The position numbers were made by a program, and so were the translations under genes. DNA of 64,000 bases, taken from the NCBI RefSeq assembly GCF_013364195.1, contig NZ_CP054918.1:4515001-4579000 (forward strand). The letters run 5' to 3'. Of this stretch, positions 19,992 through 38,895 are shown in pieces. The DNA is from Streptomyces sp. NA04227. Lineage in GTDB: Bacteria; Actinomycetota; Actinomycetes; Streptomycetales; Streptomycetaceae. Every line of letters begins with the position of its first letter. Within the stretch, counting starts at the first letter, position 1. The notes beneath the pieces are model-generated. The model had not been told where the DNA came from. It worked only from the letters and a program-made list of their open reading frames with translations, and did not search any database.

Positions 19992-21059
19992 ATGGCTTCT
20001 GACGTCCGCGTCACCGCGCCGCCGCCCGAGGGGGGCGCCGCGGGGTCAGCGCCGGATCCCGCGCTGCTGCCCTGGCTGACCGCGATCCGCGACCTGGTGC
20101 CGATGCCGGACGAGTACCGCAGGCTGCGGGTGGGCCGGGACGAGGCGCGCGCCCTGCTCGGCTGCAAGGACGAACTGCTCGACAGGCTCGCCGAGAACGG
20201 CCTGGCCCACGAGGGCTCCGGCGCCGGACTCCGCTTCGACTACCACGACTTGGCGAACGTGGCCCTGTACTCGGGCGCCACCGCCAGCGTGCCGCTCGCC
20301 GGTCAGCGGATGATGCTCCGGTTCGCCTCCGGCACCCCCGACACCTGGACCCCGCCGCGCCACTGGACGCTGGACTGGCGGCTGCGCTGTCGCGACGCCG
20401 CCTGCCCGGGCGGTAGTTGGCGGATCGCGCTGCCCACGCCCGAGGTCTTCGGCGGCAGCCTGGACGTACTGGACTGCGAGCAGCCCGCCGTGCGCGAGGA
20501 CGGTCACCTCCTGGTGGAGAACGCCTCCTCGCTGCGTCTGACCGGCAAGGTCACCACCTCCGGGTGGCGCAGCAAGCTGCTCTCGGCCGACGCGCGGCGC
20601 CACTTCGAGGACCTGGTGGGGGAGTTGCGGGACGGCCCGTACCGCTTCCAGTGGATGCACCCGAGGCTGCGCACCGACGAGGCCGGGACCAAGCGGCTCG
20701 GGATCATGGACTGCACGGTCTGCTCGCTGGAACTCCAGCGCCGCGCGGAGGCGAACGGGCTCACCACCCGTACCCGGCGCGGCCGCTACCTGGGTGTGCT
20801 CGACGCCGAGCACGCCTGGTGCGAAGTCCTGGACGAGGACGGGCGGTTCAAGCCCGTCGACCCGGTCTTCGCGGTCCTCTCCGAGCGGCACCGGCCGCCG
20901 CACGAGGAATTCACCGACTTCTGCGCCGGCTCCGTCCCGAGCCGGTTCCTGCCCTGGTCCGTGCCGGCCGGCGAGCCGCTTGCCGTGCACGACTGCCCCG
21001 TCTCCAACGGGGCCTGGGACAACACCTTCAGCGGCACCACAGCGAAAGGCAACGCATGA
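19992..21059 (+). CDS. transglutaminase-like (papain-fold) protein, possible amide synthase
   Basis: 355 aa from the ATG at 19992 (GGAAGGA 12 bp upstream). The C-terminal half carries a plausible transglutaminase-like triad in the right order and spacing: Cys241 or Cys244 (MDCTVCSLEL), His274 (AEHAWCEVL) and Asp290 (FKPVDPVF). H-A-W-x-E-V followed 16 residues later by V-D-P is the recognisable core of that superfamily. The N-terminal half resembles nothing I know. Members either cleave or form amide bonds; in andrimid biosynthesis a transglutaminase homologue (AdmF) joins two carrier-bound acyl groups. As first gene of a cluster with carrier proteins and ligases and a 4-bp overlap with the carrier protein gene, an amide-forming role is a reasonable inference, not proven. 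Confidence 0.7.
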   Translation: MASDVRVTAPPPEGGAAGSAPDPALLPWLTAIRDLVPMPDEYRRLRVGRDEARALLGCKDELLDRLAENGLAHEGSGAGLRFDYHDLANVALYSGATASVPLAGQRMMLRFASGTPDTWTPPRHWTLDWRLRCRDAACPGGSWRIALPTPEVFGGSLDVLDCEQPAVREDGHLLVENASSLRLTGKVTTSGWRSKLLSADARRHFEDLVGELRDGPYRFQWMHPRLRTDEAGTKRLGIMDCTVCSLELQRRAEANGLTTRTRRGRYLGVLDAEHAWCEVLDEDGRFKPVDPVFAVLSERHRPPHEEFTDFCAGSVPSRFLPWSVPAGEPLAVHDCPVSNGAWDNTFSGTTAKGNA

Positions 21060-21301
21060 GCACCGTACGGGAAATGCTCGTCGAACTGACCGGCATGACC
21101 GAGTTCGGCGGCGGTGAGATCGCCGACGACGCCAACCTCAGCGCGAGCGGCGTCGACTCGGGCGACCTGGTCCGCCTCGTCCTGCTCATCGAGGAGCGCA
21201 CCGGCGTGGAGGTCACCGCCGAGGACATGGACGACCTGTCCTCCATCTCCGACTACGAGCGCCTGATCGCCGACCGCCGGGCCGCAGAGGGAGCCGCCTG
21301 A
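21056..21301 (+). CDS. stand-alone acyl/peptidyl carrier protein
   Basis: 81 aa. A short four-helix carrier protein. Ser35 in GVDSGDLVRL is the expected phosphopantetheine attachment site. The ATG at 21056 overlaps the preceding stop (ATGA), and its own TGA shares one base with the next gene's ATG (TGATG), so the three genes are translationally coupled. It would be primed by the PPTase at 30.8-31.7 kb and loaded by one of the cluster's ligases. Confidence 0.85.
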   Translation: MSTVREMLVELTGMTEFGGGEIADDANLSASGVDSGDLVRLVLLIEERTGVEVTAEDMDDLSSISDYERLIADRRAAEGAA

Positions 21302-22833
21302 TGTGGCTCAGCCAGGTCCTGCACCGCAACCGGCAGTGCTTCGGTGACCGTACGGCGCTGATCGACGCCGAACGCTCGGTCACCTGGGCCGAGTTGGACG
21401 ACCGGACCACCCGGCTCGCCCAGGGGCTCGCCGCGCTCGGTGTCGCCAAGGGCGACCGGGTCGCGGTCCTGTCCCTGGACCGTATCGAGGTCCTGGAGTC
21501 GTACTTCGCGCTCGCCAAGCTCGGCGCGCTGTTCGTGCCGCTGAACCACAGCCTCACGGCGAGCGAGGTCACCGGCATGGTCCGGCGCACCGGCGTCGGC
21601 GTGATCCTCGGTGAGTCCGCGCTGCTCGACCGTCACCCCGAACTGCCGGTACGGCTGCGCCTCGCGGTGGACGGGCCCCGGTACGCGGAGCTCACCGCGC
21701 CCCGCGCCGAGGGCGAAGAGGGCACCGACGAGGAGCTCTTCGAGCTGCCCGACGTCGCCGACAGCGACCTCGCCGCGATCCTGCACACCTCGGCAACCAC
21801 CGGGCGGGCCAAGGGCGTTACGGTCGATTACGACTCGTTCCGCGGTATCTCGCTGGGCTGGCTGGCCTCGGCCCGGCCGACCGACGACATGGTGCTCGTC
21901 AACTGCTGCCCGCTCTACCACGGCAGCATGACGATCACGCTGACGTACATGGCGGCGGGCGCCACCGTCGTGGTGATGCCGGGCTTCACACCGCAGCGCG
22001 CGCTCGCGGCGATCGAGAAGCACCGCGCCACGCACGTCTGGCTGGTCCCGCAGATGCTGCGCTTCCTGCTCCAGAGCAAGGGCTTGGCGAGCACCGAACT
22101 CGGCTCCGTACGCGAGGTGATGTACGGGGCGGCGCCGATGCCCGTCGAGGTGTACGCGGAGGCCGTCGAGCGGCTCGACTGCGGCTTCCGGCAGGTCTAC
22201 GGCATGACCGAGGTGGGCGGCCCGTTCGTCACCCTCGGCCCCGACGACCACCCCGCCGGCGGCATCGACGCACCGCTGCCCGCGGGCCGGGTCATCCCCG
22301 GTATGTCGGTACGGGTGCTCGACGACGAGGGCACCCAACTCCCGGACGGCTCCGTCGGCGAGATCACCGTGCGCGGCCCGGGCCTGATGCGCGGCTACTG
22401 GAACAACCCGGCCGCCACCGAGGAGATCACCGCCGACGGCTGGATCCGCACCGGCGACCTCGGCTACCTCGACGAGACGGGCCTGATCCACCTCGTCGAC
22501 CGGCGCAAGGACCTGATCCTGCGCGCCGGGCAGAACGTCTACCCCGCCGAGATCGAGCGCGCGCTGCTCACCCACCCGCTGGTGCGCGACGCCGCGGTGA
22601 TCGGCGTCCCGGACGCGGACTACGGCGAGGTGCCGCTCGCGTACGTCGTCACCGGACCCGACGGGACCGGGGACCAGGCCGCCGACGAGGCGCCGGCCGT
22701 CACCCGCGCCGAGCTGACGGCCCACCTCGCCGCACGCCTCGCGCCCTACAAACGCCCCCGGCACCTGGAGTTCATCGACCAGGTACCCCGCAGCCCCGCC
22801 GGAAAGATCCTCAAGAAGCTGCTGCGCGCCTAG
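21301..22833 (+). CDS. AMP-forming acyl-CoA/acyl-ACP ligase (ANL superfamily)
   Basis: 510 aa. The full set of adenylation motifs is present: P-loop HTSATTGRAKG (about residue 160; Ala replaces the usual Gly of SGTTG), YGMTEVGGP (about 300), GWIRTGDLGYLD (about 380), hinge DRRKDLILRAGQNVYPAEIE (about 400) and catalytic-lysine region SPAGKILKKLL at the C-terminus. It activates a carboxylic acid as the acyl-adenylate and transfers it to CoA or, given the adjacent carrier protein, to a phosphopantetheine arm. The substrate cannot be deduced from the sequence. The ATG at 21301 overlaps the carrier protein stop. Confidence 0.88.
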   Translation: MWLSQVLHRNRQCFGDRTALIDAERSVTWAELDDRTTRLAQGLAALGVAKGDRVAVLSLDRIEVLESYFALAKLGALFVPLNHSLTASEVTGMVRRTGVGVILGESALLDRHPELPVRLRLAVDGPRYAELTAPRAEGEEGTDEELFELPDVADSDLAAILHTSATTGRAKGVTVDYDSFRGISLGWLASARPTDDMVLVNCCPLYHGSMTITLTYMAAGATVVVMPGFTPQRALAAIEKHRATHVWLVPQMLRFLLQSKGLASTELGSVREVMYGAAPMPVEVYAEAVERLDCGFRQVYGMTEVGGPFVTLGPDDHPAGGIDAPLPAGRVIPGMSVRVLDDEGTQLPDGSVGEITVRGPGLMRGYWNNPAATEEITADGWIRTGDLGYLDETGLIHLVDRRKDLILRAGQNVYPAEIERALLTHPLVRDAAVIGVPDADYGEVPLAYVVTGPDGTGDQAADEAPAVTRAELTAHLAARLAPYKRPRHLEFIDQVPRSPAGKILKKLLRA

Positions 22834-22873
22834 GACCCAAGGCCGTGTCCACCTCTAGGCCGGAAGGAAGGCC

Positions 22874-24115
22874 ATGACCAGCGCACCGACGCTCGACCTG
22901 CGCTACACCGCGGAGACCACGCTCCGCGTCTCGGACGACACCGAGCTCTACTACGAGATCCAGGGCGACGAGGGACCGCACCTCACCCTGATCAACAACT
23001 TCTTCATCATCGCGCCGATGTGGCGCAACTTCACCGCCGAACTGGCCAAGCGCAACCGGGTCCTGACCTACGACCTGCGCAACCAGGGCGCGTCCACGGT
23101 CTGCCAGGACATGAACTGGGACGACCACGTCGAGGACCTGAAGCTGCTGCTCGACGGCCTCGGTATCGAGCGCACCCATCTGCTCGGCACCTCGGCCTCC
23201 GGCTTCATCGCCCGTGACTTCGCGGCCCGTTACCCCGAGCGCGTGGACGGCCTGATCCTGACCGGCCCGTCCTGCGCACCCTCGGACGGCATCCGCCGCC
23301 GGGCCACCGAGCGCGCCTGCATCAACTCCCTGGAGCTGGGCGGCACCAAGGCGCTGTGGGACCACCTGTACTCGGTGGTCTTCAGCGAGGCGGCGATGCG
23401 CGAGATGGGCGCGGCCGGATACCTCGGCCTGCGCTCGGCGTTCACCGCCATCCACCCGCCCGGCCCGATGCTCACCAACCTCAAGTGCGCCACGCAGGTC
23501 ACCGACGGTCCCGAACTCCTCGCCGCCGTCAAGCAGCCCACCCTGCTGCTGCTCGGCGACAAGGACGAGATGTGGAACGAGCAGCTCGGTGCGGAGGCCG
23601 GACGCCTCATCGAGGACTGCGAGGTCGAGTGGATGCACGACGTCGGCCACCTCCCGTACATGGAGGACGGCGACGGCTTCCAGGCCAGGGTCCAGCGCTT
23701 CCTCGACTCGCTGGCCGCACGCGACGCGGCGGTGGCGCCGCAGACCGGTGAGGTCCCGGACCCGGCCGCCGGCCCGGCCGCCGAGGCCGCCGCTCCGGGT
23801 GCCGCTGCGGTGGCCGCCGCTGCCGGGGACGACGACGAGCCGCTGATCGCCGCGCTCTGCGCGCTGCTGCGCGAGGTGGTCGCCGACCGTGCCGACCTGC
23901 CCGAGACCGGCCTCGCCGACACCGAGCTGAACACCATCGGCCTGGAGTCGTGGGCGTTCACCATGCTGCTCACCCGGATCGAGGAAGAGCTGTCCGTCGA
24001 GTGGGACATGGACGTGCCCACCGACGTCTTCGAGAGCCTTCGCAGCATCGCGGACCACCTGCGCGCCCACCACAACCCGACGCTTCCCACCACCTCCCAG
24101 GAGTCCGCACAGTGA
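22874..24115 (+). CDS. alpha/beta-hydrolase fused to a C-terminal carrier protein domain
   Basis: 413 aa. Residues 1-290 are an alpha/beta-hydrolase: DLRNQGAS, nucleophile elbow LLGTSASGF with Ser107 (second small residue is Ser, not Gly), catalytic acid likely in GDKDEMWNEQ, and His in DVGHLPYMEDG. An Ala/Pro-rich linker (about 295-325) leads to a carrier domain with attachment site Ser359 (TIGLESWAFTML). A hydrolase tethered to a carrier domain suggests thioester release, editing or acyl transfer on its own carrier. The ATG at 22874 follows GGAAGGAAGG. It overlaps the reductase gene by 4 bp. I know of no standard family with this domain pair. Confidence 0.85.
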   Translation: MTSAPTLDLRYTAETTLRVSDDTELYYEIQGDEGPHLTLINNFFIIAPMWRNFTAELAKRNRVLTYDLRNQGASTVCQDMNWDDHVEDLKLLLDGLGIERTHLLGTSASGFIARDFAARYPERVDGLILTGPSCAPSDGIRRRATERACINSLELGGTKALWDHLYSVVFSEAAMREMGAAGYLGLRSAFTAIHPPGPMLTNLKCATQVTDGPELLAAVKQPTLLLLGDKDEMWNEQLGAEAGRLIEDCEVEWMHDVGHLPYMEDGDGFQARVQRFLDSLAARDAAVAPQTGEVPDPAAGPAAEAAAPGAAAVAAAAGDDDEPLIAALCALLREVVADRADLPETGLADTELNTIGLESWAFTMLLTRIEEELSVEWDMDVPTDVFESLRSIADHLRAHHNPTLPTTSQESAQ

Positions 24116-25317
24116 CCGCCACCCACGCTCCCGCCGCACACGTCATCACCGGCGCGACCGGCTTCGTCGGCGGCGCCTTCGCGCTCGAACTGCTCCAGCA
24201 GACCGCCGACCGCCTGGTGTGCCTGGTCCGCGGCGAGGACGACCGGGCCGCGACCCGCCGTCTGCACGACGCGCTCGGGCACGCCGCCGAGATGTACGGC
24301 GTGCCCGACCTGCTGCCCTCGATCCTGGAGCGCACCCGCGCCGTCGCCGGGGACATGACGGACGAGGCGCTGCCCGAGTACGCCGAGCGCTTCCGCGCCG
24401 CCGCGGGCGACGCCGAGTTCGGCACCTTCTGGCACGTCGCCGCCTCCCTCAAGTACGAGGACCGGCACGCCGACGAGATCAACCTGATGAACGTCAGCGG
24501 CACGCGCAACGTCCTCGCGCTCGCCAAGACCCTTGGTCAGCCGGTGTTCAACCACGTCAGCACCGCGTACGTGGCGGGCAAGCGCACCGGCCTGCAGTAC
24601 GAGGAGTTCCCCGGCGACACCGACTCGGCCAACAACGTCTACGAGTTCACCAAGACCATCGGCGAGCAGGAGGTCGCGAACTCCGGTCTGCCCTGGCGGG
24701 TGCTGCGCCCGTCGATCGTCATCGGCCACGCGAAGACCGGCGCCGCCACCAGCTTCACCGGCATGTACGGCTTCGTCTCCTCCGTACTGCGCTTCCGCCG
24801 CGCGGTGGAGAAGGAGTTCGGCAACCTGCTCCAGCACCGGCAGGTGCCGATCATCGCCGACCCGGAGATCGAGTGCGACCTGGTCCCCGTCGACCTGGTG
24901 GCGCGCAACGCGGTCACCATCGGCCGCGAGGGCGCGCTGAGCACCGTCTACCACCTCAACAACGCGGGTTCGCCGAAGGTCGGCGAGGTCATCGAGGAGG
25001 TCTTCGAGCTCGCCGGGCTGCGCGCGCCGCGCTTCGTCGCCGACCGGGGGCTGCTCACCGAGATCGACCTGAAGCTCGACGAGGGCATCCAGTTCTACGC
25101 CTCGTACATGATCAACGGGAAGCACTTCGACCAGAAGAACACCGAGTCCGTCTGCGGCGAGGGCAGCCAGCGCTTCGACGTGGACCGCGCCGAGGTCCGC
25201 CGCTTCGTGCAGTGGTACCTGGAGCGCATCCAGTCCGACGGCCGCGCCTCGGCCCCGGCCCGCGCCGCCTTCGCGTACCAGGACGGGCGCCAGCCCGCCG
25301 CGAGCACGCAGGGCTAG
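24112..25317 (+). CDS. thioester reductase-like NAD(P)-dependent enzyme (NAD_binding_4, extended SDR)
   Basis: 401 aa from a GTG at 24112 that forms a GTGA overlap with the preceding stop and has CAGGAG upstream. Rossmann motif ITGATGFVGGAFALELL at residues 10-26, serine region NHVSTAYVAG and catalytic YEFTK (Y-x3-K), then PSIVIGHAKTG. These are the marks of the fatty acyl-CoA reductase/NRPS reductase-domain family, which reduce acyl thioesters to aldehydes or alcohols. In this cluster it could release a carrier-bound intermediate as an aldehyde. Other extended-SDR reactions cannot be excluded. Followed by a 300-bp gap with a long stem-loop. Confidence 0.82.
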   Translation: MTATHAPAAHVITGATGFVGGAFALELLQQTADRLVCLVRGEDDRAATRRLHDALGHAAEMYGVPDLLPSILERTRAVAGDMTDEALPEYAERFRAAAGDAEFGTFWHVAASLKYEDRHADEINLMNVSGTRNVLALAKTLGQPVFNHVSTAYVAGKRTGLQYEEFPGDTDSANNVYEFTKTIGEQEVANSGLPWRVLRPSIVIGHAKTGAATSFTGMYGFVSSVLRFRRAVEKEFGNLLQHRQVPIIADPEIECDLVPVDLVARNAVTIGREGALSTVYHLNNAGSPKVGEVIEEVFELAGLRAPRFVADRGLLTEIDLKLDEGIQFYASYMINGKHFDQKNTESVCGEGSQRFDVDRAEVRRFVQWYLERIQSDGRASAPARAAFAYQDGRQPAASTQG

Positions 25318-25333
25318 TACCGAAAAGCGCCAA

Positions 25334-25436
25334 CCCGGCGGGCGGCGTTCGCCCTTCGTGACCCGGGACGACACCCGACATCCGATGTCCGCTGACGTCC
25401 GAGGTCCCGTTCCCGCGAACGCCGCCCCGCCCGGGG
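25334..25436 (+). repeat. long inverted repeat between reductase and second ligase genes
   Basis: CCCGGCGGGCGGCGTTCGC (25334-25352) pairs with the near-complement at 25415-25436 across a ~62-nt loop, which itself contains GACATC-C-GATGTC (25378-25390). The structure starts 17 bp after the reductase stop. It could end or attenuate the upstream transcript or protect its 3' end. There is no poly-U tract. The rest of the gap (25437-25617) shows no convincing gene; GGAGGAG near 25604 serves the next ATG. Confidence 0.55.
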
Positions 25437-25617
25437 CCAGTTGAGCCCCATCCCGGTCGGCTCCCGGCCCGCCTTCGCACCGACGGCGCCCCCCACCGCC
25501 TTCGGCGCGCCGGGCACCGGCACCCGTACACCGCCGTACGCACGCCGCGCATGCCGCCCGCCGACCTCATCGCCCGAGACGCCGCACCGTCTCCCGTCCT
25601 CCCGGAGGAGACCGCAC

Positions 25618-27213
25618 ATGTCCCTGCCCGACGACCTGCCGAAGCCGGGGAAGCTGTTCACGCTGGGTCTGATCACCCAGCAGGCCGCGCAGAAGTTCCC
25701 CGACTCGCTGTTCTACCTCGACCGGCCCTTCGACGTCGCACCCGAGCTGGGCCTGCGGCCGACCTACGCGCAGGTCGCCGAGCTCGTCGAGGACCTGGCC
25801 GCCCGGCTGTACGCCGCGGGCGTGCGCCCCGGTCACACCGTGGCCGTGTACAAGAGCCACAACGCCGACATCCTCTTCCTGGCTTGCGCCATCGGCCGGG
25901 TGGGCGCGGTTCCCGCCATGCTCGCGCCGTTCCTGGAGTGGCCGACCGTGGTGAAGATGATGGGCCGGCTGAAGCCGGACCACTTCCTCACCGACCCGGC
26001 CACCCTCGCGCTCGCCGGGGACAACCTCGCGGCCCTGCGCGCCAGCGCCCCGGCCGTCCTGCTCACCCACGGCGAGGGCGAAGGGCTGCCCTCGGTCGCC
26101 GCCACCGTGCCCGGCCAGGCGCCCCCGTACCCGGACATCCCCGAGGACGCGCCCGCGCTGATCACGCACACCTCCGGCACCACCGGTGTGCCCAAGCTGG
26201 TGGCCGCCGCCAGGCGCGGCACGCAGCTGCCCATCAACACCCAGGCCAAGATGGCCAAGCTGCTGCGCTACCGCGAGACCTTCGCCATGTGCATCTCCTT
26301 CGTGCACGCCCGCACCTACGCGGCCCTCGCCACCGCCATGCAGCTCGGCATCGGCATCGCGCCGCTGTCGGACCCGGACCCGGCCAGCGTCGGCAAGGTG
26401 CTCACCGAGGCCCGCCCCGGCTGTGTCGAGGCGCACCCCAACATGTACCTGCACTGGGAGGAACTGGCGGGCATCCCGGACGGCCCCTTCGAGCGGGTGC
26501 GCATCTTCATGAGCACCTTCGACGCCATCCACCCGCGCAGCATCCGTACCCTGCTCGGCGCGAGCAAGCGGCGCTCCCCGCTGTTCATCCAGACCTACGG
26601 GCAGACCGAGACCGGCCCGGTCACCATGCGGATCTACACCCGCCGCAACATCGACAAGGCCGACGGCCGCTGCGTCGGCTTCGTCTTCCCCGGCATGACC
26701 AAGGCTCGTATCCGGCCCCGCCCGCAGGACCAGGGCACCCGCAACGGCTACATCCAGGCCCGGTCCTCCGGTGTCGCGCTCACCTACGTCGGCCAGCAGG
26801 AGCTGTACGACGAGCGCTGCGAGGCGGGCGACTGGTGGAACCTCCAGGACATCGGTTACAAGACCCGCTGGGGCTGTGTGCACCTGATGGACCGCGAGTT
26901 CGACCAGGCGGACGGACTCGACAGCCTGCTCGCCGCCGAGGACACGCTGATCGAGGCGCTGCCGGAGCTGACCGAGGCCGTCTTCGTCCGGGTCGGCGAG
27001 ACCGTACGTCCCGTGGTGACCACCCGTCAGGACCGGCCGCTGGACCGCGCCGCCTGGCAGGCCGCCGTCGCCGACCTGCCCGGGCTGGCGGAGCCGATCC
27101 ACGTCGCCTGGAAGTACATCCCGCACACCGCGACCTGGAAGGTGAAGCGCAACGTCCTCGCCGCCGGTCTGACCGACGGTTCGATACCGGCGCTGGACGG
27201 GGTGCGGAGCTGA
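25618..27213 (+). CDS. divergent AMP-forming ligase (ANL superfamily)
   Basis: 531 aa from the ATG at 25618 with GGAGGAG upstream. The P-loop THTSGTTGVPKLV (about residue 180) and QTYGQTETGPVTMRIY (about 325) are clear. The C-terminal region is divergent: DIGYKTRWGCVHLMDRE stands in for the TGD...GR motif, the hinge segment is hard to recognise, and WKVKRNVL near the end may provide the catalytic lysine. It therefore probably makes an acyl-adenylate, with unusual domain-alternation chemistry or partner. The anthranilate synthase gene begins 2 bp after its stop, so anthranilate (2-aminobenzoate) is an attractive but unproven substrate. Confidence 0.8.
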   Translation: MSLPDDLPKPGKLFTLGLITQQAAQKFPDSLFYLDRPFDVAPELGLRPTYAQVAELVEDLAARLYAAGVRPGHTVAVYKSHNADILFLACAIGRVGAVPAMLAPFLEWPTVVKMMGRLKPDHFLTDPATLALAGDNLAALRASAPAVLLTHGEGEGLPSVAATVPGQAPPYPDIPEDAPALITHTSGTTGVPKLVAAARRGTQLPINTQAKMAKLLRYRETFAMCISFVHARTYAALATAMQLGIGIAPLSDPDPASVGKVLTEARPGCVEAHPNMYLHWEELAGIPDGPFERVRIFMSTFDAIHPRSIRTLLGASKRRSPLFIQTYGQTETGPVTMRIYTRRNIDKADGRCVGFVFPGMTKARIRPRPQDQGTRNGYIQARSSGVALTYVGQQELYDERCEAGDWWNLQDIGYKTRWGCVHLMDREFDQADGLDSLLAAEDTLIEALPELTEAVFVRVGETVRPVVTTRQDRPLDRAAWQAAVADLPGLAEPIHVAWKYIPHTATWKVKRNVLAAGLTDGSIPALDGVRS

Positions 27214-27214
27214 G

Positions 27215-29512
27215 ATGACCACCCATCCGCTGCCCGTTCCACTGCCCCGGGAGTGGACCACCGGCGCGGGCGTGCGCGTCGAGCGCACCCGTACCGCCGT
27301 CGACGGCGAGTCCGCCCTGCGCGAGCTCGAACACGCCCTCGACACCCGCAGGGGCGCCGTCCTGCGCTCCGACTACGAGTCCCCCGACCGCTACCGCCGC
27401 CACGCCGTCGGCTACACCGACCCGCCGGTCGAGATCGTGCTGCGCGGGCTGCGCACGGTCGAGGTCCGTGCGCTCAACGCCCGCGGCGAGGTGCTGCTGC
27501 CGGTGCTGCGCACGGCGGCCCAGCGGACGCTTCGTGAGATCCGCGAGCTCCAAGTCACCGACGAGGGCGGCGAGTTCGGCGGCCCCGGCTTCGCCGGAGA
27601 GGTCCGGGCCACGCCGGGCCAGGACCTCTTCAGCGAGGAGGACCGGTCACGGCGGCCGGGCGCCTTCGACTTCGTGCGTGCCGTGCGCGACGCGCTGTCC
27701 GGCCCGGCCGGGGACTTCCTCGGCCTGTACGGCGCCTTCGGCTACGACCTGGTGCTCGCCTTCGACCCGGTACCGCTGCACCAGAGCGGCCGCTCGGCGG
27801 CCCACCGCGATCTGGTGCTGCACCTGCCGGACGAGGTGATCGTCACCGACCCGGCGGCGGGCACCGCCTGGCGGCACAGCTACGAGTTCACCGCCGAGGG
27901 CCGCAGCACCCACGGCCTGCCCCGGAACACACCCGCCGAGCCATTTCGCACCGGAGCACAGGCGGCCGACGGGGACCACGCGCCCGGCGAGTACGCCACG
28001 CTGGTCCGCGCCGCCCGCGAACGCTTCCGCGCGGGCGACCTGTTCGAGGTGGTCACCAGCCGTACCTTCGACCGCCCCGTCACCTGCCCGCCCTCGGAGC
28101 TGTTCCGGGCCCTGTGCGAGCGCAACCCGTCCCCGTACCAGATGCTCGTCAACCTCGGTGAGGGCGAGCATCTGGTGGGCACCTCGCCGGAGATGTTCGT
28201 ACGGGTGCACGCGCGGGCCACCGCCGACGGCACCGGCTGGCGGGTGGAGTCGGCGCCGATCAGCGGCACCGTGGCCCGTGGCCGGGACGCCCTGGAGGAC
28301 GCCGAACAGGTCAAGGCGCTGCTCGCCTCCGAGAAGGAGGAGGCGGAGCTGACCATGTGCACCGACGTGGACCGCAACGACAAGTCGCGGGTCTGCGAGC
28401 CGGGCACCGTCCGCGTCATCGGCCGCCGCCAGCTGGAGATGTACTCGACGCTGATCCACACCGTCGACCACGTCGAGGGTGTGCTGCGGCCCGAACGCGA
28501 CGCGCTGGACGCCTTCCTCAGCCATATGTGGGCGGTGACCGTCACGGGTGCGCCCAAGCACGCGGCGGTCGCCTTCCTGGAGGAGCACGAGCGCTCCCCG
28601 CGCCGCTGGTACGGCGGTGCCGTGGGCCGGATCGGCTTCGACGGCACCCTGGACACCGGCCTCACCCTGCGCACGGTCCATCTGCACGACGGCCGCGCCC
28701 GGGTGCGCACCGGCGCGACGCTGCTCTACGACTCGGTGCCCGAGGCGGAGGAGCAGGAGACCGAGCTGAAGGCGAAGGCGCTCCTGGAGGTGCTCGACGC
28801 CCTGGCCTCCGGTTCCGGGGCCGCTGCGAGCGCCACGGCAACTCCGCGTGCGGCGAAGGCAGTTGGGGACGCGGGCGATGCGGCGTACCGCCCCCGCGTG
28901 CTGCTCGTGGACCACCAGGACTCCTTCGTGCACACCCTGGCCGGGTACTTCCGGCAGGCGGGCGCCCGGGTCTCCACGTACCGCAGCGGTTTCGACAAGT
29001 CCCTTGTCGCGGACATCGATCCGGACCTGATCGTGCTCTCGCCCGGCCCCGGCCGCCCCGAGGACCACGACACCGCGGGGACCCTGCGGATCGCCGAGGA
29101 CCACGGGATCCCGGTGTTCGGGGTCTGCCTCGGTATGCAGGCCCTGGTCGAGTACCTGGGCGGGCGCCTCGCGGTGCTCGACCGTCCGTACCACGGCAAG
29201 CCCTCGGAGGTCTCGGTGGTGGACGGCGGCGGCGCACTGCTGCGCGGACTGCCGCCGCGCTTCACCGCCGGGCGCTACCACTCCCTGTACGCCGACGCCG
29301 CGAGCCTGCCGCCCGGCCTGCGGGTGACCGCCCGCTGCCCGGATGGTGTGGCCATGGCCGTCGAGCACGAGACCCGTGCGCTTGCCGGTGTGCAGTTCCA
29401 TCCCGAATCCCTGATGACGCAGTTCGACGATCACGGACAGCGGCTGATCGGCAATGTCCTGGCGCGACTCGCACGGCGGCCGGAGCCCGTCGGCGGCGTG
29501 CCCCGCGCGTGA
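27215..29512 (+). CDS. fused anthranilate synthase TrpE-TrpG
   Basis: 765 aa. Residues 1-530 are the chorismate-utilising TrpE half, with TDVDRNDKSRVCEPG, the VTVTGAPKHAAVAFLEEHE segment and the GATLLYDSVPEAEEQETELK motif. A ~35-residue Ala-rich linker leads to a class I glutamine amidotransferase: Cys638 in FGVCLGMQ and FHPES near the end. The overall sequence style matches the single-chain TrpE(G) of Rhizobium and Azospirillum rather than the two-gene primary enzyme. It makes anthranilate, pyruvate and glutamate from chorismate and glutamine. Its place inside a biosynthetic cluster, 2 bp after a ligase and 19 bp before an amino acid:carrier ligase, indicates dedicated precursor supply. ADIC synthase or pathway-specific variants are less likely but not excluded. 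Confidence 0.88.
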   Translation: MTTHPLPVPLPREWTTGAGVRVERTRTAVDGESALRELEHALDTRRGAVLRSDYESPDRYRRHAVGYTDPPVEIVLRGLRTVEVRALNARGEVLLPVLRTAAQRTLREIRELQVTDEGGEFGGPGFAGEVRATPGQDLFSEEDRSRRPGAFDFVRAVRDALSGPAGDFLGLYGAFGYDLVLAFDPVPLHQSGRSAAHRDLVLHLPDEVIVTDPAAGTAWRHSYEFTAEGRSTHGLPRNTPAEPFRTGAQAADGDHAPGEYATLVRAARERFRAGDLFEVVTSRTFDRPVTCPPSELFRALCERNPSPYQMLVNLGEGEHLVGTSPEMFVRVHARATADGTGWRVESAPISGTVARGRDALEDAEQVKALLASEKEEAELTMCTDVDRNDKSRVCEPGTVRVIGRRQLEMYSTLIHTVDHVEGVLRPERDALDAFLSHMWAVTVTGAPKHAAVAFLEEHERSPRRWYGGAVGRIGFDGTLDTGLTLRTVHLHDGRARVRTGATLLYDSVPEAEEQETELKAKALLEVLDALASGSGAAASATATPRAAKAVGDAGDAAYRPRVLLVDHQDSFVHTLAGYFRQAGARVSTYRSGFDKSLVADIDPDLIVLSPGPGRPEDHDTAGTLRIAEDHGIPVFGVCLGMQALVEYLGGRLAVLDRPYHGKPSEVSVVDGGGALLRGLPPRFTAGRYHSLYADAASLPPGLRVTARCPDGVAMAVEHETRALAGVQFHPESLMTQFDDHGQRLIGNVLARLARRPEPVGGVPRA

Positions 29513-29530
29513 GAAAGGTTTTGACGAGCA

Positions 29531-30712
29531 ATGACTGACACCGCTGAGCAGATCCGCCGGACCTGGCAGGCCCCGGGCGAGCTGCACCCCGACGACCGCC
29601 GCGAGTTCGGCGCGATGCTGCGCTACTGCCTCGACGGCACCGACGAGACCCGGATCGACCTGGACACCGTTCCCCGTATCGAGTTCGGCGCCGTGGACGC
29701 CGCCGACGCCGACCGCGTCGAACGGCTCCTCGGCGAGGCGTTCAAGCGCTTCGCGGGCGCGCCCGGGCAGCGCCCCGACCGCACCCGCCTGGACAACTGG
29801 GACCTGAAGGCCGAGCCCGCGGCGCCCACCGCCACCGGGCCGCTCGGCACCACCCCCGCCGACGGCCGTATCGGCCCGGGCCTGTTCGTCAGCGGCCCGC
29901 GCAACGCGCTGCTCATCCGCTCCCTGGAGCGGCTGCTCGGCAAGATCGCCGCCCGGCTCGGCGCCGACGAGTACACGGTGCCCGCGCTGCTGCCCTGGAC
30001 CACCCTGGAGAAGGCCGGCTACACCGGCAACTTCCCGCAGCACATCACCGCCGCCGGTGTGGTCCGCCCCGACCTCGACGCCCTCGACCGCTTCGGCAAG
30101 GCCACCGATGTGGCGGGCCGCGCCGCCGAGTTGGAGTACACCCCGGTCGCGCTCGCGCCCGCCGTCTGCATGGGGCTCTTCGAGCGTTTCCAGGGCGCGC
30201 GGCTGACCGAGCCGCTCACCGTCACCGCGACCGGCCAGTGCAGCCGTTACGAGGGCAAGGCCACCGCCGACACCTCGCCGACCCGCCGCTGGTCGTTCAG
30301 CATGCGCGAGATCGTCTACGTCGGCGACCGGCCGGGCGCCCGCGCCTTCCACGGCCAGGTCCTCGCGGAACTGCTCGCCCTCGCCGAGAACCTCGGCCTG
30401 CCCTGCAAGGTGCAGCCCGCCTCGGACCCGTTCTTCACCTCGGCCCGTCCGCAGATGGCCCAGTACCAGGCGGCCATGGACGTCAAGTACGAGCTGGTCG
30501 GACGGATGGCGCACGACGGCTCGGGCGTCGCCGTCTCCTCGCTCAACTACCACAACCAGCACTTCGGCAAGGGCTTCGACATCGCCTTCGACGGCCGCCC
30601 CGGCTTCTCCGTCTGCTGGGCCTTCGGCCTGGAGCGCTGGGCGGAATGGCTCGGCGGCTACCTCGGCGACAACCCGGCCGACTGGCCGGTGCAGTTGCGG
30701 GAGCAGGTCTGA
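29531..30712 (+). CDS. amino acid:[carrier protein] ligase (class II seryl-tRNA synthetase-like)
   Basis: 393 aa. It has the catalytic core of a class II aminoacyl-tRNA synthetase (motif 2 RRWSFSMREIVYVG near residue 260; motif 3 CWAFGLERWAEWL near 360) but no tRNA-binding arm. Cysteines in APAVCMG, ATGQCSRYEG and SVCWAFGLE are candidates for the Zn site of atypical SerRS-like enzymes. This matches the amino acid:[carrier protein] ligases, which adenylate glycine, alanine or another small amino acid and transfer it to the phosphopantetheine of a carrier protein. The start follows GAGAAAGG. The specific amino acid cannot be stated. Confidence 0.82.
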   Translation: MTDTAEQIRRTWQAPGELHPDDRREFGAMLRYCLDGTDETRIDLDTVPRIEFGAVDAADADRVERLLGEAFKRFAGAPGQRPDRTRLDNWDLKAEPAAPTATGPLGTTPADGRIGPGLFVSGPRNALLIRSLERLLGKIAARLGADEYTVPALLPWTTLEKAGYTGNFPQHITAAGVVRPDLDALDRFGKATDVAGRAAELEYTPVALAPAVCMGLFERFQGARLTEPLTVTATGQCSRYEGKATADTSPTRRWSFSMREIVYVGDRPGARAFHGQVLAELLALAENLGLPCKVQPASDPFFTSARPQMAQYQAAMDVKYELVGRMAHDGSGVAVSSLNYHNQHFGKGFDIAFDGRPGFSVCWAFGLERWAEWLGGYLGDNPADWPVQLREQV

Positions 30713-30807
30713 TCCGCAGCGGACTGGCGGGGCCCGGTGGTACGGCCAGTGCTGCGGGCCTCGGCGGCAAGGCCCGTACTGCGGGTCCCGGCGATGCGGC
30801 CAGTGCC

Positions 30808-31740
30808 GTGCCGCCGAAGGCGCCGCTCGACGACGGGGCCGGGGTGGTGCGGGCGTTGCTCGCGCTGCGGCCCGTCGTCGAGGCCGCCCCGCTCGTAGTC
30901 GAGGCCGTCCCGCCCGGTGAGGGCGGGGCCCGGTTCGCGCTGGGTCTCGCCACGGTGGGCGAGCCGGGCCTCGGCCCGGTGGGCCCGGCCGAGCAGCGGG
31001 TGTGCGCCGGTCGACTGCCGCGCAGGGCACAGGAGTTCGTCGCGGGCCGGGGTGCGCTGCGGCGGGCTCTGGCCCGGGCGTCCGGACTGCCCGGTGGCGC
31101 GGACGCGGAGATCTCGTACGCGGACGCGGAGATCCCGTACGAGGCGGACGGCGTCCGGCCCCGGCTGCCGGACGGGTGGGTGGGCTCGCTCAGCCACTCC
31201 GGCGGGGTGGCCGTGGCACTGGCGGCTCCGGCCGCGCACTGCGCCGGGCTGGGGGTGGATCTGGAGCGCTCTCCGCTGCCGCTCGCGGCGCGGCGGGTGG
31301 TGCTGACGAGGGACGAACAGGGCTTTCTGGACGGCGAGTTCGGGGAGTTCGGGGAGTACGGCGAGTTCGGGGAGTACGGGGAGCACGGCGGTGCCGCCGA
31401 GTCCTGCGGGTCCGGGGAGGCCGCAGGGCTCGGCGACTTCGGCGACGTGGGCGGCCTCGGCGGCCTCGGTGGTACGGAAACCGGCGTCCCCGAACGCCGC
31501 CTCTGGGTGCTGTTCTCCGCGAAGGAGTCCGCGTACAAGGCGCTGTACGGACTGGTGGAGCCGTCCCAGCGGCCCACGACTCTGCTCGGTGTCGGCATCC
31601 GGCCGGTCCCGGGCGGCTTCGCCGCCTGGGCGCGCCGGGCGCCGGAGCGGGTGCTGCACGTCCACGCCCGATGGGCCCAGGGAGCGGTGCTCACCTGGAC
31701 CGGTGCGGCCACCAAATGCCGCCCGGGCAGGGCCTGTTGA
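30808..31740 (+). CDS. 4'-phosphopantetheinyl transferase (Sfp/EntD type) with acidic insertion
   Basis: About 310 aa from a GTG at 30808. The start is uncertain, since GTGs at 30844 and 30847 are also in frame and no ribosome site is clear. Diagnostic motifs are LGVDLER (G-x-D-x-E, Mg binding) and FSAKESAYKALYG (F-x-x-K-E-x-x-Y-K). It converts apo carrier proteins to holo form, and would serve the two carrier domains of this cluster. Between the motifs lies a ~60-residue insertion of Gly/Glu/Phe/Tyr repeats (9-bp DNA unit, about 31333-31392) absent from normal enzymes, whose structural effect is unknown. The gene follows the ligase by about 95 bp in the same direction. Confidence 0.8.
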   Translation: MPPKAPLDDGAGVVRALLALRPVVEAAPLVVEAVPPGEGGARFALGLATVGEPGLGPVGPAEQRVCAGRLPRRAQEFVAGRGALRRALARASGLPGGADAEISYADAEIPYEADGVRPRLPDGWVGSLSHSGGVAVALAAPAAHCAGLGVDLERSPLPLAARRVVLTRDEQGFLDGEFGEFGEYGEFGEYGEHGGAAESCGSGEAAGLGDFGDVGGLGGLGGTETGVPERRLWVLFSAKESAYKALYGLVEPSQRPTTLLGVGIRPVPGGFAAWARRAPERVLHVHARWAQGAVLTWTGAATKCRPGRAC

Positions 31741-31828: not shown

Positions 31829-32329
31829 TCAGCGCCATGCCTCCTGGAAATTGCGCCGGGCGCGGTGCAGCCGGGAGCGTACGGTGCCGATCGGCAGGGA
31901 CAGTACGCGTGCCGTCTCCTGCTCCTGGAGTCCGTAGACCGCGCGCAGGGTCAGGATGTCCCGCTGGTGCGAGGGCAGGCGTTCCAGTACGTCGGCGATG
32001 GCGACCCGTACCGAGGGGTCGGCCGCGGACGGCTGGTCGGTGAGTTCGGACGTCACGGTCTGTCCCGCGCGGCGTGCGACCCGGGCCGCCTCGCGCATCG
32101 TCACGGCGCGCACCCAGCCGTAGAACGCGGCCGGTTCGCGCAGGGTGTGCAGTCCCCGGTAGACGGCGAGCAGTGCTTCCTGGACCGCCTCGGGCCGGTG
32201 ACCGGCGTCCACCGAGGAGCACAGGCGCCGTACGAACGGTGTGATGTGGAGCAGCAGGTCGTTCACCGCGCGCCGGTCTCCGGCCTGGGCGGTGAGGATC
32301 AGCTTGTCGACTGGTGGTGCAGCGTCCAT
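31829..32329 (-). CDS. ECF-type RNA polymerase sigma factor
   Basis: 166 aa. Region 2 includes RPEAVQEALLAVYRGLHTLREPAAFYGWVRAV (shared character with DAVQE...W motifs) and region 4 contains LPSHQRDILTLRAVYGLQEQETARVLSLPIGTVRSRLHRAR. Region 1.1 and 3 are lacking, as in group 4 sigma factors. No anti-sigma gene is adjacent. It lies inside the biosynthetic cluster, divergent from the HTH regulator at 32703 and convergent with the PPTase, so it may direct cluster transcription; that is inference. Confidence 0.85.
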   Translation of the reverse strand: MDAAPPVDKLILTAQAGDRRAVNDLLLHITPFVRRLCSSVDAGHRPEAVQEALLAVYRGLHTLREPAAFYGWVRAVTMREAARVARRAGQTVTSELTDQPSAADPSVRVAIADVLERLPSHQRDILTLRAVYGLQEQETARVLSLPIGTVRSRLHRARRNFQEAWR

Positions 32330-32702
32330 CTGGTCAATCCCCCGTCATGCTTACGACTCGTAATGCAAATGAATTTCTGGGGGGAATGAGAAGTTCCAGA
32401 GATCGCCGGAATCAGCGACTCCACCGCATCCAATCCCCCGTGCCGCCAAGCCTAGTGACGCGGATTCAGGGAACCGGCAATTCGAGCTGGCTGGCTCCCG
32501 CCATGGCAAACCCTCGCCATCTCGGCATGTGGACGGTCTGCCGTGCGAATGCGGAGGCCCCGCCGGGATTGTTACAACATACCTACAACCGGCGTGATCT
32601 GACTCTCACTTACTCGTCCCACCTGGGACTGTGTCCTAGAGTGACCACCCACGCGACGGGAGCGCTGCACAGTACAAAGCTCATTCACCGGGGGATCGCT
32701 CT
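32330..32702. promoter_or_regulatory. divergent regulatory region between sigma factor and HTH regulator
   Basis: 373 bp without a credible gene and noticeably less GC-rich than its surroundings. It contains GTCCCA-CC-TGGGAC (32616-32629), a near-perfect palindrome 74 bp before the regulator's GTG, plus GCCAT repeats near 32510-32530. GGGGGA near 32689 is the regulator's ribosome site. Both genes probably start here and may be autoregulated. Confidence 0.45.
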
Positions 32703-33779
32703 GTGGGGAACAGTGAAAAGGGCCCGGATGTTCGGGTGTCCGAGGCCTCGCGCCTCGCTGTGTATATGGAGTTGCGCGAACGCGGGGATTCCGATCCGGA
32801 TGAGCTCTCCGAGAGTTTCGGACTTTCGCGTTCCGAGGCCCGGGCGACCTGGGCCTCCCTGCGCCGCCTCGGATTGGTGAACTGGCCCAGCGAGGAGGGC
32901 GATCGCGTCGTTCCGGTGGATCCGGAATTCGCTCTGATGCGCATGCTGAGGCGGCAGCAGGACATGGCGCGGCGCAGCCTGGAGGAGTCCCGGCTGATGC
33001 ACGAGGCGATGGAGTCGCTCCTCGAGGTCTACCTCCCGGCGACCGGCACCGCGAAGTCCGCCGTCGAGGTCACCGCGGTGAGCACCGTCGAGGAGATGGT
33101 GCAGGCGCTGTACGACGTCACCGACTCGGCGCGCTCCAGCATGTGCACCGTCTACGCGGAGAACACGCTGCCTGTCCGGCTGCGCCGCAGGCTCGGCCCG
33201 CTGCGGCAGCGGATGTTCGACCGGGGCATCCACATCCGTTCCATCCGGCACCGCCGCGACACCGCCTCGCCCGGCTCGTTCGACACCTTCGGCCGTCTGG
33301 TGAAGGCGGGTGTGGATCTGCGGCTCGCCTCGGTCATCCCGCTCAACATGGTGATCATCGACTCGGACTTCGCGGTGCTGCCCGCGGCCGAGGGCGAGCC
33401 CCGCAACACCCAACTCACCGTGCGCGGCGCGCCGTTGGTGTCCGCGTTCTCGGCGGTCTTCGAGCACACCTGGCGCGAGGCGGCCCCGTTCACCCCCGAG
33501 GGCGAGAGCGCCGCGCCCGGTCTCTCCGACGAACACCGCACCCTGGTGCAGCTGCTGGCCGACGGAATGAAGGACGAGGCCATCGCGCGCACCCTCGGCG
33601 TCTCGCCGCGCACCGCCAGCAGGCTGATCGCGGACCTGATGCAGCGCCTCGGTGCCACCAGCCGTTTCGCGGCGGGCGCCCGCGCCGCCCAGTACGGGCT
33701 GCTCAGCTCCACCCGCTCCCGGCACCTCTCCTCGGTCCCGGAGCAGCCCGAACCGGCGCCCGCGGTCGGCGGCTGCTGA
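32703..33779 (+). CDS. transcriptional regulator with N-terminal TrmB-like and C-terminal LuxR-type HTH
   Basis: 358 aa from a GTG at 32703. Residues 12-65 form a winged-helix-like segment (ELSESFGLSRSEARATWASLRRLGLVNW). A middle phospholipase-D-like/TrmB effector region follows (MFDRGIHIRSIRHRRD, VKAGVDLRLAS). The C-terminus has a LuxR-type HTH (LVQLLADGMKDEAIARTLGVSPRTASRLIADLMQRLG). This two-HTH layout is common in Streptomyces cluster-situated regulators. It sits upstream of the three condensation-type genes and ends in a terminator, so it is probably a separate unit controlling the pathway. Confidence 0.8.
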   Translation: MGNSEKGPDVRVSEASRLAVYMELRERGDSDPDELSESFGLSRSEARATWASLRRLGLVNWPSEEGDRVVPVDPEFALMRMLRRQQDMARRSLEESRLMHEAMESLLEVYLPATGTAKSAVEVTAVSTVEEMVQALYDVTDSARSSMCTVYAENTLPVRLRRRLGPLRQRMFDRGIHIRSIRHRRDTASPGSFDTFGRLVKAGVDLRLASVIPLNMVIIDSDFAVLPAAEGEPRNTQLTVRGAPLVSAFSAVFEHTWREAAPFTPEGESAAPGLSDEHRTLVQLLADGMKDEAIARTLGVSPRTASRLIADLMQRLGATSRFAAGARAAQYGLLSSTRSRHLSSVPEQPEPAPAVGGC

Positions 33780-33785
33780 AGACGA

Positions 33786-33821
33786 GGCGGCCCGGCCCAC
33801 CGAATGTCCGGTGGGCCGCCT
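33786..33821 (+). terminator. terminator-like hairpin after the HTH regulator
   Basis: GCCCACCG (33795-33802) pairs with CGGTGGGC (33809-33816), extended imperfectly by GGCGGC and GCCGCC on either side, starting within 10-20 bp of the stop. No T-tract follows, as is usual for high-GC actinomycete terminators. Confidence 0.65.
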
Positions 33822-34524
33822 GTCCTGACCGGGGGTAACAAATAATTCAGGCCGCGTGCTTCGGTGAATCGGCCAATTCCCTTGTGAGTGACCGGAGTCA
33901 CGCCGTCCCGGCACCCTTTGTGAAACCGTCCTGCCGACCTTTTTCTTTGTCCGGTCGCACCGCGCTCCCGAAGGTCACCGCAAAACCCGCCGAGGGAAGT
34001 CCTGTGACCGTCGACACAAGCGGCCGTGTGAATCCCGGCACATCCGATGCCGAATTGTGGTCGTCATGTAAAAACGGCAAGACCAACTTGTATCGACGCC
34101 CTCACCGCTTGGCAAAGTTGGCTGGTTGGGTGGCCGCCGGATCGCCAACACGGCCAGGTCGGAGGGGTGTTGGCGGGGTTCGGACCAGGCGGTCGGAGTT
34201 CCCGGGCGAGAAGTGCGAACGAATCGGGTGTGCCGGACAGAGTGCACATAAATCGACCTTGCACGGCCGTTCGAGCCGTGCGTAGGCTCCGGTGACCGGG
34301 TTCTGCATTTATGCGGTCGTTATGACTGTGCGGGCGACCGCATAAACTGCCCGGCTGTCGAGCGGCGCGGTGTACGGACAATGGCCCTGCCTTGTTTTGT
34401 CAGCTCGCGTAAATGTCCCCGTAAAGAGCGTGCGGAAGTCTTTGCGGTACGGCGAAGCACGGCAGAGCCCAGGCTTTCCGTAAAACCCGATCCCCCACTG
34501 CATCACCGGTTGCGAGGCAGGCTC
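33822..34524 (+). promoter_or_regulatory. AT-enriched upstream region of the condensation genes with several inverted repeats
   Basis: About 700 bp without a defensible gene, clearly more AT-rich than the rest of the window. Contained symmetry: GTGAC-CGGA-GTCAC (33888-33901), GCACGGC-N7-GCCGTGC (34261-34281) and TTTATGCGGTCG / CGACCGCATAAA (34308-34346). AT-rich regulatory DNA of this length usually hosts promoters and nucleoid-protein (Lsr2) or activator binding in Streptomyces. An in-frame extension of the next gene runs back to 34381 but encodes unlikely sequence. Confidence 0.5.
34308..34346. repeat. perfect 12-bp inverted repeat with 15-bp spacer
   Basis: TTTATGCGGTCG (34308-34319) and its exact reverse complement CGACCGCATAAA (34335-34346). 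It lies about 180 bp before the GTG of the first condensation gene. The spacer is about 1.5 helical turns. Candidate regulator site; a transcript hairpin is possible too. Confidence 0.6.
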
Positions 34525-37379: not shown

Positions 37380-37443
37380 CCGACGCGGCAGCACACCGGA
37401 CACGTCCTAGGAACCAACTCGGCCGGAAAGGAAGGCGGTTGCC

Positions 37444-38895
37444 GTGCGCGTCGCCATGATCGACCGCTACCGTCCCGAGCCCGGACGGCTGGTGGAGTTC
37501 GTACGGTCCGCCGCGACCCGCGTCGCGGCGGACACGGCACCGGCCTCGCCGGTACCGCCCTCCTTCAACCAGCTCTTCCACGTGGCGACGGCCGACCGCG
37601 ACCCGGACGGCCCCCGCCACTGGCTCTGCTTCGCCTTCGACCTCGCGGGCGAGGTGGATCTCGACGCGCTGCACAGGGCCTTCGAGCACTTCCTCGCCCG
37701 CCACGAGGCCCTGCGCAGCAGCTTCCGCGAGGCGCCGGGCGGGGCCGGTGCGGACGGCGGCGTCCAGCGGTTCGTCGTCCCCGCCGAGAAGTACGAGCTG
37801 GCGCGCGAGGACCACGGTGAGGCCGGCACCCCCGAGGCGCTGCGGGACCTGCTCGCCGCGCGCCTCGCGGTCCGCTGCCACCCGCTCGGCGACCCGCCGC
37901 ACCTGCTGTCGGTCGTCCTGCGCCCCGGCTCGGCCACCGTCTTCTGCGGCTTCGACCACGGCAACATGGACGGCTACTCGCTCACCCTCGCCGTCCACGA
38001 ACTCCACGAGAGCTACCGGGCGTTCGCCTCCGGCCGCACCCCCGAACTCCCGCCCACCGACAGCTTCGTGACGTACTGCGCCGAGGAACAGGCCACGCCG
38101 GCCGGCCCGCCGCCCGGCCGCGACCACCAACTCGTCGCGGGCTGGGCCGAGTTCTTCGAAGGCTGCGGCTCCACCCTGCCGTCCTTCCCCCTCGACCTCG
38201 GCCTGCCGCACGGCACCCGCGCCCCACAGGCCACCGATATCCGGGGGCTCCTGGACGTCGCCGAGGCCGACACCTTCGAGCAACGCTGCCGCGCCGCCGG
38301 CGGCACCTTCTTCACCGGCGCCCTCACCGCCCTCGCCGTGGCCGCCCGACGTCTCGGCGCCACCGGCGGCATCCGCCTGTGCACCCCGATGCACACGCGG
38401 TACGAGGACCGGTGGCGGCACTCGATGGGGTGGTTCACGACGGTCGCACCGCTGACCCTGGACGGGGACGGGGACGGGGACGGGGACGGCAGCGGGGACA
38501 GGGATGTCGCCGGTGGTGCGGGAGGCGCGGGCGGGGCGGTGGCGGGTGCGGCTCGTACCAAGTCGGCCTTCGCCGCGGCCCGTCGCCTCGCCGAGGTGCC
38601 GGTGGCACAGGTCCTGCCCGCGCTCGGCGACAGTGTGCGGCGCGAGAAGGACGACGTGTTCATGGCCTCGTACATCGACTACCGGGCCTTCCCCGGCAGC
38701 GAGCGGCACGTGGAATTCAACGCCCACCACGTCGCCAGCGTCACCACCACGGACAACGTGCAGTTCTGGTTCACGCGTACGCACGAGGGGCTGTTCCTGC
38801 GCTCCAGGTACCCGGCGACGGAACGGGCCACAGTGGTGGTCCGGGAGTTCGTGGAGACGGTGGGGGCGGTGTTGCGGGAGGACTGCCGGGAGTAG
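37444..38895 (+). CDS. stand-alone condensation-domain protein 3 (DHxxxDG)
   Basis: 483 aa from a GTG at 37444 (GGAAAGGAAGG upstream; ATG at 37456 also possible). Motif D171-H172-GNM-D-G, then TRYEDRWRHSMGWFTTVAPL and SYIDYRAFPGS. N-terminal PEPGRLVEFV matches paralogues 1 and 2. A Gly/Asp repeat (DGDGDGDGDG, 38463-38499) is inserted right after the GWF-TVAPL segment, in a loop position. It is the last gene of the cluster on this strand; the next gene is convergent. Confidence 0.82.
   Translation: MRVAMIDRYRPEPGRLVEFVRSAATRVAADTAPASPVPPSFNQLFHVATADRDPDGPRHWLCFAFDLAGEVDLDALHRAFEHFLARHEALRSSFREAPGGAGADGGVQRFVVPAEKYELAREDHGEAGTPEALRDLLAARLAVRCHPLGDPPHLLSVVLRPGSATVFCGFDHGNMDGYSLTLAVHELHESYRAFASGRTPELPPTDSFVTYCAEEQATPAGPPPGRDHQLVAGWAEFFEGCGSTLPSFPLDLGLPHGTRAPQATDIRGLLDVAEADTFEQRCRAAGGTFFTGALTALAVAARRLGATGGIRLCTPMHTRYEDRWRHSMGWFTTVAPLTLDGDGDGDGDGSGDRDVAGGAGGAGGAVAGAARTKSAFAAARRLAEVPVAQVLPALGDSVRREKDDVFMASYIDYRAFPGSERHVEFNAHHVASVTTTDNVQFWFTRTHEGLFLRSRYPATERATVVVREFVETVGAVLREDCRE

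Follow-up and report, generated by a model that had tools for sequence, protein, structure and literature searches.

Carrier-templated amide assembly without a nonribosomal peptide synthetase (NRPS), in which a transglutaminase (TGase)-like enzyme acts as the amide former, is known in principle. AdmF of the andrimid pathway joins two carrier-bound acyl units, and the thiotemplated, NRPS-independent closthioamide pathway builds amides with discrete enzymes and carrier proteins instead of modules. To our knowledge, the andrimid and butuanimide clusters contain neither an anthranilate synthase nor a ligase resembling seryl-tRNA synthetase (SerRS). Here we analyzed a 64,000-nucleotide window of Streptomyces sp. 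NA04227 (genome GCF_013364195.1, one 7.89-Mb contig, NZ_CP054918.1; coordinates of the locus are positions in this window), and consider it moderately probable that the genes at 17.4–33.8 kb encode a small NRPS-free, carrier-templated pathway whose TGase-like enzyme would join carrier-bound units into an amide. The precursors and enzymes of closthioamide differ from those of this cluster. The andrimid and butuanimide clusters resemble it in having a TGase-like gene, which is colored in the legend of a published cluster comparison; they differ in containing polyketide synthase (PKS) and NRPS genes, according to that legend (PMC13151354).

The original prediction, made from the DNA letters alone, described one 19-kb block with a thiotemplate cluster of discrete enzymes, anthranilate supply and three condensation proteins. 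Profile, PDB and predicted-fold matches confirmed the enzymes and regulators it listed, every named gene lying at or very near its predicted place, and no modular NRPS or PKS was seen within the block. Nine plus-strand genes occupy 19992–31740, each overlapping the next or separated from it by 44 bases at most, save for 300 bases upstream of AL2. In order, they encode the TGase-like enzyme and proposed amide synthase (19992–21059), the free carrier protein CP1 (21056–21301; PF00550, E = 2.8e-11), the acyl/aryl adenylating ligase AL1 (21301–22833; PF00501, E = 2.1e-78, with AMP-binding_C), an alpha/beta hydrolase-carrier fusion (22874–24115; PF00561 and PF00550), a thioester-reductase-like (TR-like) enzyme of the NAD_binding_4 type (24112–25317; PF07993, E = 7.8e-41), the divergent adenylating ligase AL2 (about 25618–27213; PF00501, E = 2.8e-33), a fused anthranilate synthase TrpE-TrpG (27215–29512), an amino acid:carrier-protein (aaCP) ligase-like protein with a SerRS-like core (29531–30712), and an Sfp-type phosphopantetheinyl transferase (PPTase; about 30757–31740; PF17837, E = 7.7e-11). 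The starts of AL2 and the PPTase are uncertain and, like those of the hydrolase-carrier fusion and of C1 further downstream, were chosen by us. The PPTase frame also contains low-complexity Gly-Glu-Phe/Tyr repeats and scores 22.2 bits against PF01648, below the cut-off of 25. Divergent from the TGase operon, on the minus strand, lies an MMPL-family exporter gene (17437–19749; PF03176, E = 2.8e-82); it falls outside the coordinates of the original prediction but is conserved with the set.

The predicted model of the TGase-like enzyme adopts a TGase-type fold and also matches, less strongly, arylamine N-acyltransferases and geldanamycin amide synthase. The Cys-His-Asp triad is present in 37 of 37 rows of the TGase alignment. 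Both features looked for in an AdmF-like enzyme, a TGase fold with its triad and free carriers in the same cluster (CP1 and the hydrolase-carrier fusion), are found here, and by analogy with AdmF the enzyme is likely to form an amide between carrier-bound units.

Neighboring genes point to two building blocks. TrpE-TrpG scores 918.8 bits against TIGR01815 (cut-off 739.15) and 972.3 bits against NF010081 (cut-off 645), at equivalog level, and we are strongly confident that the pathway would use anthranilate. Primary tryptophan supply as the sole role of TrpE-TrpG was rejected, since the gene lies within the cluster, recurs with TGase and AL2, and the genome holds ten chorismate-binding matches. 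Use of an amino acid is also highly likely. The aaCP ligase shares a homologous core with the Bradyrhizobium Bll0957-type ligases (PDB 4h2w and 3mey), matching 4h2w with E = 1.4e-22 over residues 124–391. Its three presumed zinc ligands, Cys213/Glu260/Cys362, whose positions we take from Bll0957 through the alignment, are kept in 18 of 18 loci plus the window. It differs from the Bll0957 type by ~120 residues before the matched core, by its anthranilate-pathway setting and by having no directly adjacent carrier gene. Because it scores 119.5 bits against NF005479, below the equivalog cut-off of 357, we call it '-like' and treat it as a divergent relative, not as an equivalog. The nearest relatives are Streptomyces-type proteins (P0002–P0009, 63–88%), followed by proteins up to 48% and two Kitasatospora genes at 43%. 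At one locus of Kitasatospora indigofera (L003, 3216–12570), a 43%-identical aaCP ligase stands beside E1 dehydrogenase and transketolase-type genes, with two aminotransferases, a carrier, an RraA-like protein, a P450 and a condensation-like gene as further neighbors.

The whole set recurs in Streptomyces sp. NK08204 (locus L001), where MMPL, TGase, CP1, AL1, hydrolase-carrier, TR-like, AL2, TrpE-TrpG, aaCP ligase, PPTase, an extracytoplasmic function (ECF) sigma factor and a LuxR regulator follow in identical order at 38–77% identity, with the last three in the same place at 38%, 60% and 44%, respectively. The MMPL orthologue is a 183-residue piece ended by the edge of the fetched stretch. 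To this extent the original prediction is supported: separate thiotemplate enzymes, a dedicated source of anthranilate, no modular NRPS, and a gene order conserved at least once. In the window, the ECF-type sigma factor gene (31829–32329, minus strand; PF08281, E = 1e-15) follows the PPTase, and the LuxR/TrmB-type regulator gene (32703–33779, plus strand; PF00196) is the last gene seen conserved with the unit.

We then compared TGase loci more widely. A single-protein search at 1e-60 across 365 genomes of the family matched the own genome alone; a TGase profile at 0.001 matched 35 of 392 genus genomes, and 21 of these exceeded 100 bits, with 4–5 candidates scored per genome. The 31 loci compared comprise every match above 100 bits, L001 and the window, and were split by AL2 (16 with, 15 without); gene picks in part of the locus annotation were mechanical. 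TrpE-TrpG matches of at least 200 bits occur in ten AL2 loci (the window, L001, L050, L051, L056, L057, L061, L062, L090 and L097), and four more carry a tryptophan-dioxygenase-like gene (L049 and, more weakly, L100–L102; 774, 142, 140 and 126 bits), that of L049 scoring 287 bits against TIGR03036, below the cut-off of 390.7. L063 has only an 83-residue TrpE-TrpG piece at the locus end, and the 10.5-kb contig of L094 contains no anthranilate-supply gene. Anthranilate supply thus accompanies 14–15 of 16 AL2 loci versus none of the 15 AL2-less loci (Fisher test for 15/16 versus 0/15, 5.7e-8, counting L063 as positive and treating the loci as independent though they are kin). At 14 of the 15 AL2-less loci (L047, L048, L052–L054, L058, L060, L091–L093, L095, L096, L098 and L099), TGase is instead followed in order by an AurF-type diiron oxygenase, a carrier and an aaCP ligase, with a ligase-like gene in between in L054; ketosynthases occur in L047, L048, L052 and L053. 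None of the AurF-type oxygenase, carrier or aaCP ligase was found at the remaining locus, L059. Among the 16 AL2 loci, two have the aaCP ligase, namely the window and L001; the window cluster thus adds an amino acid ligase to the anthranilate type. A plasmid copy of the AurF/aaCP-type set (L105) also carries a gene annotated as nitronate monooxygenase.

Judged from its genes, the window cluster belongs to a family of similar clusters with a scattered occurrence. Its own genome holds two further AL2-class TGase clusters: L056, with TrpE-TrpG, an FAD enzyme, AL1, a carrier protein, MMPL, TGase, AL2, a carrier, a TR-like enzyme and a hydrolase, and L057, with a 3-deoxy-D-arabino-heptulosonate 7-phosphate (DAHP) synthase-like gene, MMPL, AL2, a fatty-acyl-AMP-ligase-like gene, TGase, AL1, an AurF-type gene, an acyl-CoA dehydrogenase and TrpE-TrpG. 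L050 encodes a DAHP synthase above its cut-off. FAD enzymes of L050 and L062 have salicylyl-CoA 5-hydroxylase as their best model (338.7 and 242.8 bits, far below the cut-off of 1078), consistent with an ortho-substituted aryl thioester. The tree places the window TGase in one group (96/91) together with L001, six database proteins, L050, L051, L056 and L090; the last four loci have MMPL, TR-like and hydrolase genes in common. Each of two tree labels required two changes versus 10.6 in shuffles, neither forming a single clade; the L056 row was overlong (835 residues) before trimming, and long branches join in one region. Two further loci are recorded as side observations. L049 (genome G386) contains a gene read as a tryptophan halogenase, with no NCBIfam match at 1e-20, suggesting a halogenated anthranilate. 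Outside the 31 counted loci, Streptomyces sp. NBC_00536 carries a plasmid-borne AL2-class TGase cluster (L106, NZ_CP107820.1 45824–64747) whose annotation includes a DAHP synthase and component I of anthranilate synthase.

The catalytic residues expected of such a pathway are kept. Counted over the 15 AL2-class loci other than the window, AL2 Lys508 is conserved in all 15 and AL1 Lys502 in the 14 where AL1 was found. Conservation likewise extends to the hydrolase Ser107/Asp229/His259 and to the TR-like glycine motif with Thr151/Tyr177/Lys181 in the five loci where each was found, and CP1 Ser35 is kept in the window and in the four loci with a match. Carrier Ser359 is fused to the hydrolase in the window and L001 only, L056 having a separate carrier frame. 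The substrates, the sequence in which the enzymes act and the way the product is released are inferred. In the proposed pathway, the PPTase would arm CP1 and the hydrolase-fused carrier, TrpE-TrpG would supply extra anthranilate, and AL2 (or AL1) would load it onto a carrier. The aaCP ligase would charge a carrier with an amino acid, and AL1 may add a further acyl or aryl acid. TGase would pick up the acyl group on Cys241 and pass it to the amine that the second carrier-bound unit presents, forming the amide; the TR-like enzyme and the hydrolase would modify or release the chain. The MMPL protein would export the product, which its presence suggests to be fairly hydrophobic. Since the AL2-less set pairs TGase with an aaCP ligase, in some loci with ketosynthases, the simplest common reading is that the aminoacyl-carrier presents the amine, with the anthraniloyl-carrier as its counterpart in the AL2 set. 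More broadly and more tentatively, at a little short of even chances, actinomycete TGase-like enzymes may represent a general, unrecognized NRPS-free route to peptide or amide bonds, with an AL2/anthranilate set and an aaCP-ligase/AurF set that the window would combine as a dissociated anthranilate-containing dipeptide synthetase.

Several observations weigh against this pathway assignment. Profile searches with the window TGase gave no Pfam and no NCBIfam match, and by sequence its best PDB match reached only E = 0.45. The TGase loci are related and not independent, and three AL2-less loci have weak TrpE-TrpG matches of 71–104 bits that were not counted. On a plasmid of Mycobacterium intracellulare subsp. 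chimaera (L104, NZ_CP015269.1 111805–130698), the core of MMPL, carrier (annotated acyl carrier protein), TR-like enzyme (annotated short-chain dehydrogenase/reductase), hydrolase and TGase has as neighbors a gene for amino-acid adenylation, a second carrier, an acyl-CoA dehydrogenase and a gene annotated as a chlorinating enzyme. Neither AL2 nor TrpE-TrpG is matched in this 18.9-kb stretch; the core is therefore not anthranilate-specific and serves other building blocks too. Relatives of the hydrolase occur in eight of the 15 AL2-less loci, seven of which have no TR-like match, so the two enzymes are not tied to each other. AL1 may also be the anthranilate ligase, since it accompanies AL2 at 15 of the 16 loci, the window among them. 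AL2 is nevertheless the better candidate for the anthranilate:carrier ligase, because its occurrence follows that of anthranilate supply and because the fetched stretch of L049 has AL2 and a tryptophan-dioxygenase-like gene but no AL1.

Two other products of the same genes were weighed. TGase might transfer a fatty acyl chain or another acyl group to carrier-bound anthranilate and, with separate addition of the amino acid, give an N-acyl-anthranilate lipid exported by MMPL. Such a lipid would suit the fatty-acyl-AMP-ligase-like gene found in ten AL2-class loci (L049, L057, L061–L063, L094, L097 and L100–L102) and the recurrence of MMPL (homologues in L050, L051, L056, L057, L063, L090 and L104, in AL2-less L093 and weakly in L091), but the window and L001 have no fatty-acyl-AMP-ligase-like match and carry the amino acid ligase instead, which makes this route rather unlikely here. 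Alternatively, the TR-like enzyme could release an anthranilate–amino acid aldehyde that cyclizes to a benzodiazepine-like imine. Release as an aldehyde had already been suggested in the original prediction, and it is possible: the enzyme matches TR domains, and its nucleotide-binding glycines and Tyr/Lys are intact in the five loci noted above. However, it scores 97 bits against TIGR01746, below the curated cut-off of 213.35. Only six of the 16 AL2-class loci were found to have it, and it also occurs in L104, whose stretch shows no anthranilate supply, so that reduction may serve another step; we regard reductive release as somewhat less probable still than the lipid.

The block most likely comprises two separate units, the biosynthetic set at 17.4–33.8 kb and a PapA2-like cassette at 34.5–38.9 kb. 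After a 742-base gap, the LuxR/TrmB-type gene is followed on the plus strand by C1 (34522–35946), C2 (35967–37379) and C3 (37444–38895), and then by an AraC-type gene. These are the only three in the window of the genome's 20 condensation matches. They are indeed PF00668 proteins (86.8, 66.2 and 64 bits; cut-off 30.6), as the original prediction had it, but the NRPS condensation-domain motif is HHxxxDG and all three carry DHxxxDG. C1, the one searched against the PDB, has as its best solved relative the trehalose-2-sulfate acyltransferase PapA2 (6aef, E = 2.8e-37, residues 10–451 of 474), followed by an NRPS condensation domain at 2.2e-10. By their motif and, for C1, its solved relative, C1–C3 look like PapA-type acyltransferases rather than condensation proteins; they are unlike PapA2 in forming three tandem copies, in Streptomyces.

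A single 19-kb pathway, in which the three PapA-like proteins would form an amide or ester or tailor the product, is very improbable. The cassette does start 0.74 kb downstream of the LuxR gene and reads in the same direction, and its proteins in the window keep the His, Asp and Gly of HxxxDG, but the two halves occur independently. C1–C3 stand in window order in G096 (L084, 55–63% identity) and G018 (L088, 51–58%; its C3 row has Ala for the motif Gly), and pairs stand at L085, L086 and L087 in G090, G366 and again G018; conservation rows are the best match per locus, some of them paralogues. In all four genomes a TGase match at 0.001 is lacking, every one of their 61 to 126 candidates having been scored. 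From partial translations, the cassette neighbors in L084, L085, L086 and L088 look like unrelated genes. Conversely, the NK08204 assembly (G713, 7.6 Mb) contains the TGase match and the full first part, and nothing in it matches the C1–C3 model at 1e-30, all 56 of its 56 candidates having been scored; its L001 contig ends ~0.9 kb after LuxR (14667 to 15543), too short to show C1. No C1–C3 match at 60 bits was found in 30 TGase loci, most reaching only ~10 kb either side. Across the genus, the C1–C3 model matches 147 of 392 genomes at 1e-30 (4–5 candidates scored per genome). Among 23 further TGase-cluster genomes, with up to 66 candidates scored in each, 11 have no such match, and in the other 12 every match is either on a different contig from TGase or, on the same contig, 1.3 Mb or more away from it; assemblies may be incomplete, and draft contigs hide distances. 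The unit and the cassette are therefore separable: the cassette occurs in genomes without a TGase match, and in the other TGase-cluster genomes searched no C1–C3 match lies near TGase, an outcome that the original prediction had itself named as refuting a single block. Membership of C1–C3 in the unit was rejected on these grounds. They most likely form an independent PapA-type cassette lying downstream by chance. A promoter and terminator scan of 31.6–34.6 kb gave no promoter-like and two terminator-like sites, versus 1.4 by chance.

No published description of this gene set was found in the literature on carrier-protein ligases, andrimid/AdmF, ishigamide and anthranilate clusters, subscription journals being mostly outside that scope; within it, the absence of a recognized product holds. 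A mycemycin-type dibenzoxazepinone cluster was rejected as a match: the genes described for it include those for kynurenine-pathway enzymes, an amidohydrolase and a 3-oxoacyl-ACP synthase, and the word 'transglutaminase' was not found in that paper (PMC5867642). The new part of the window cluster is the combination of TGase-type assembly with anthranilate supply and a SerRS-like ligase. If this reading is true, a few free enzymes would stand in for an NRPS module and would be easy to reconstitute and recombine. It would also open a cluster family that probably escapes searches aimed at modular synthetases, and the three such clusters in one Streptomyces genome would offer internal comparisons for product finding.

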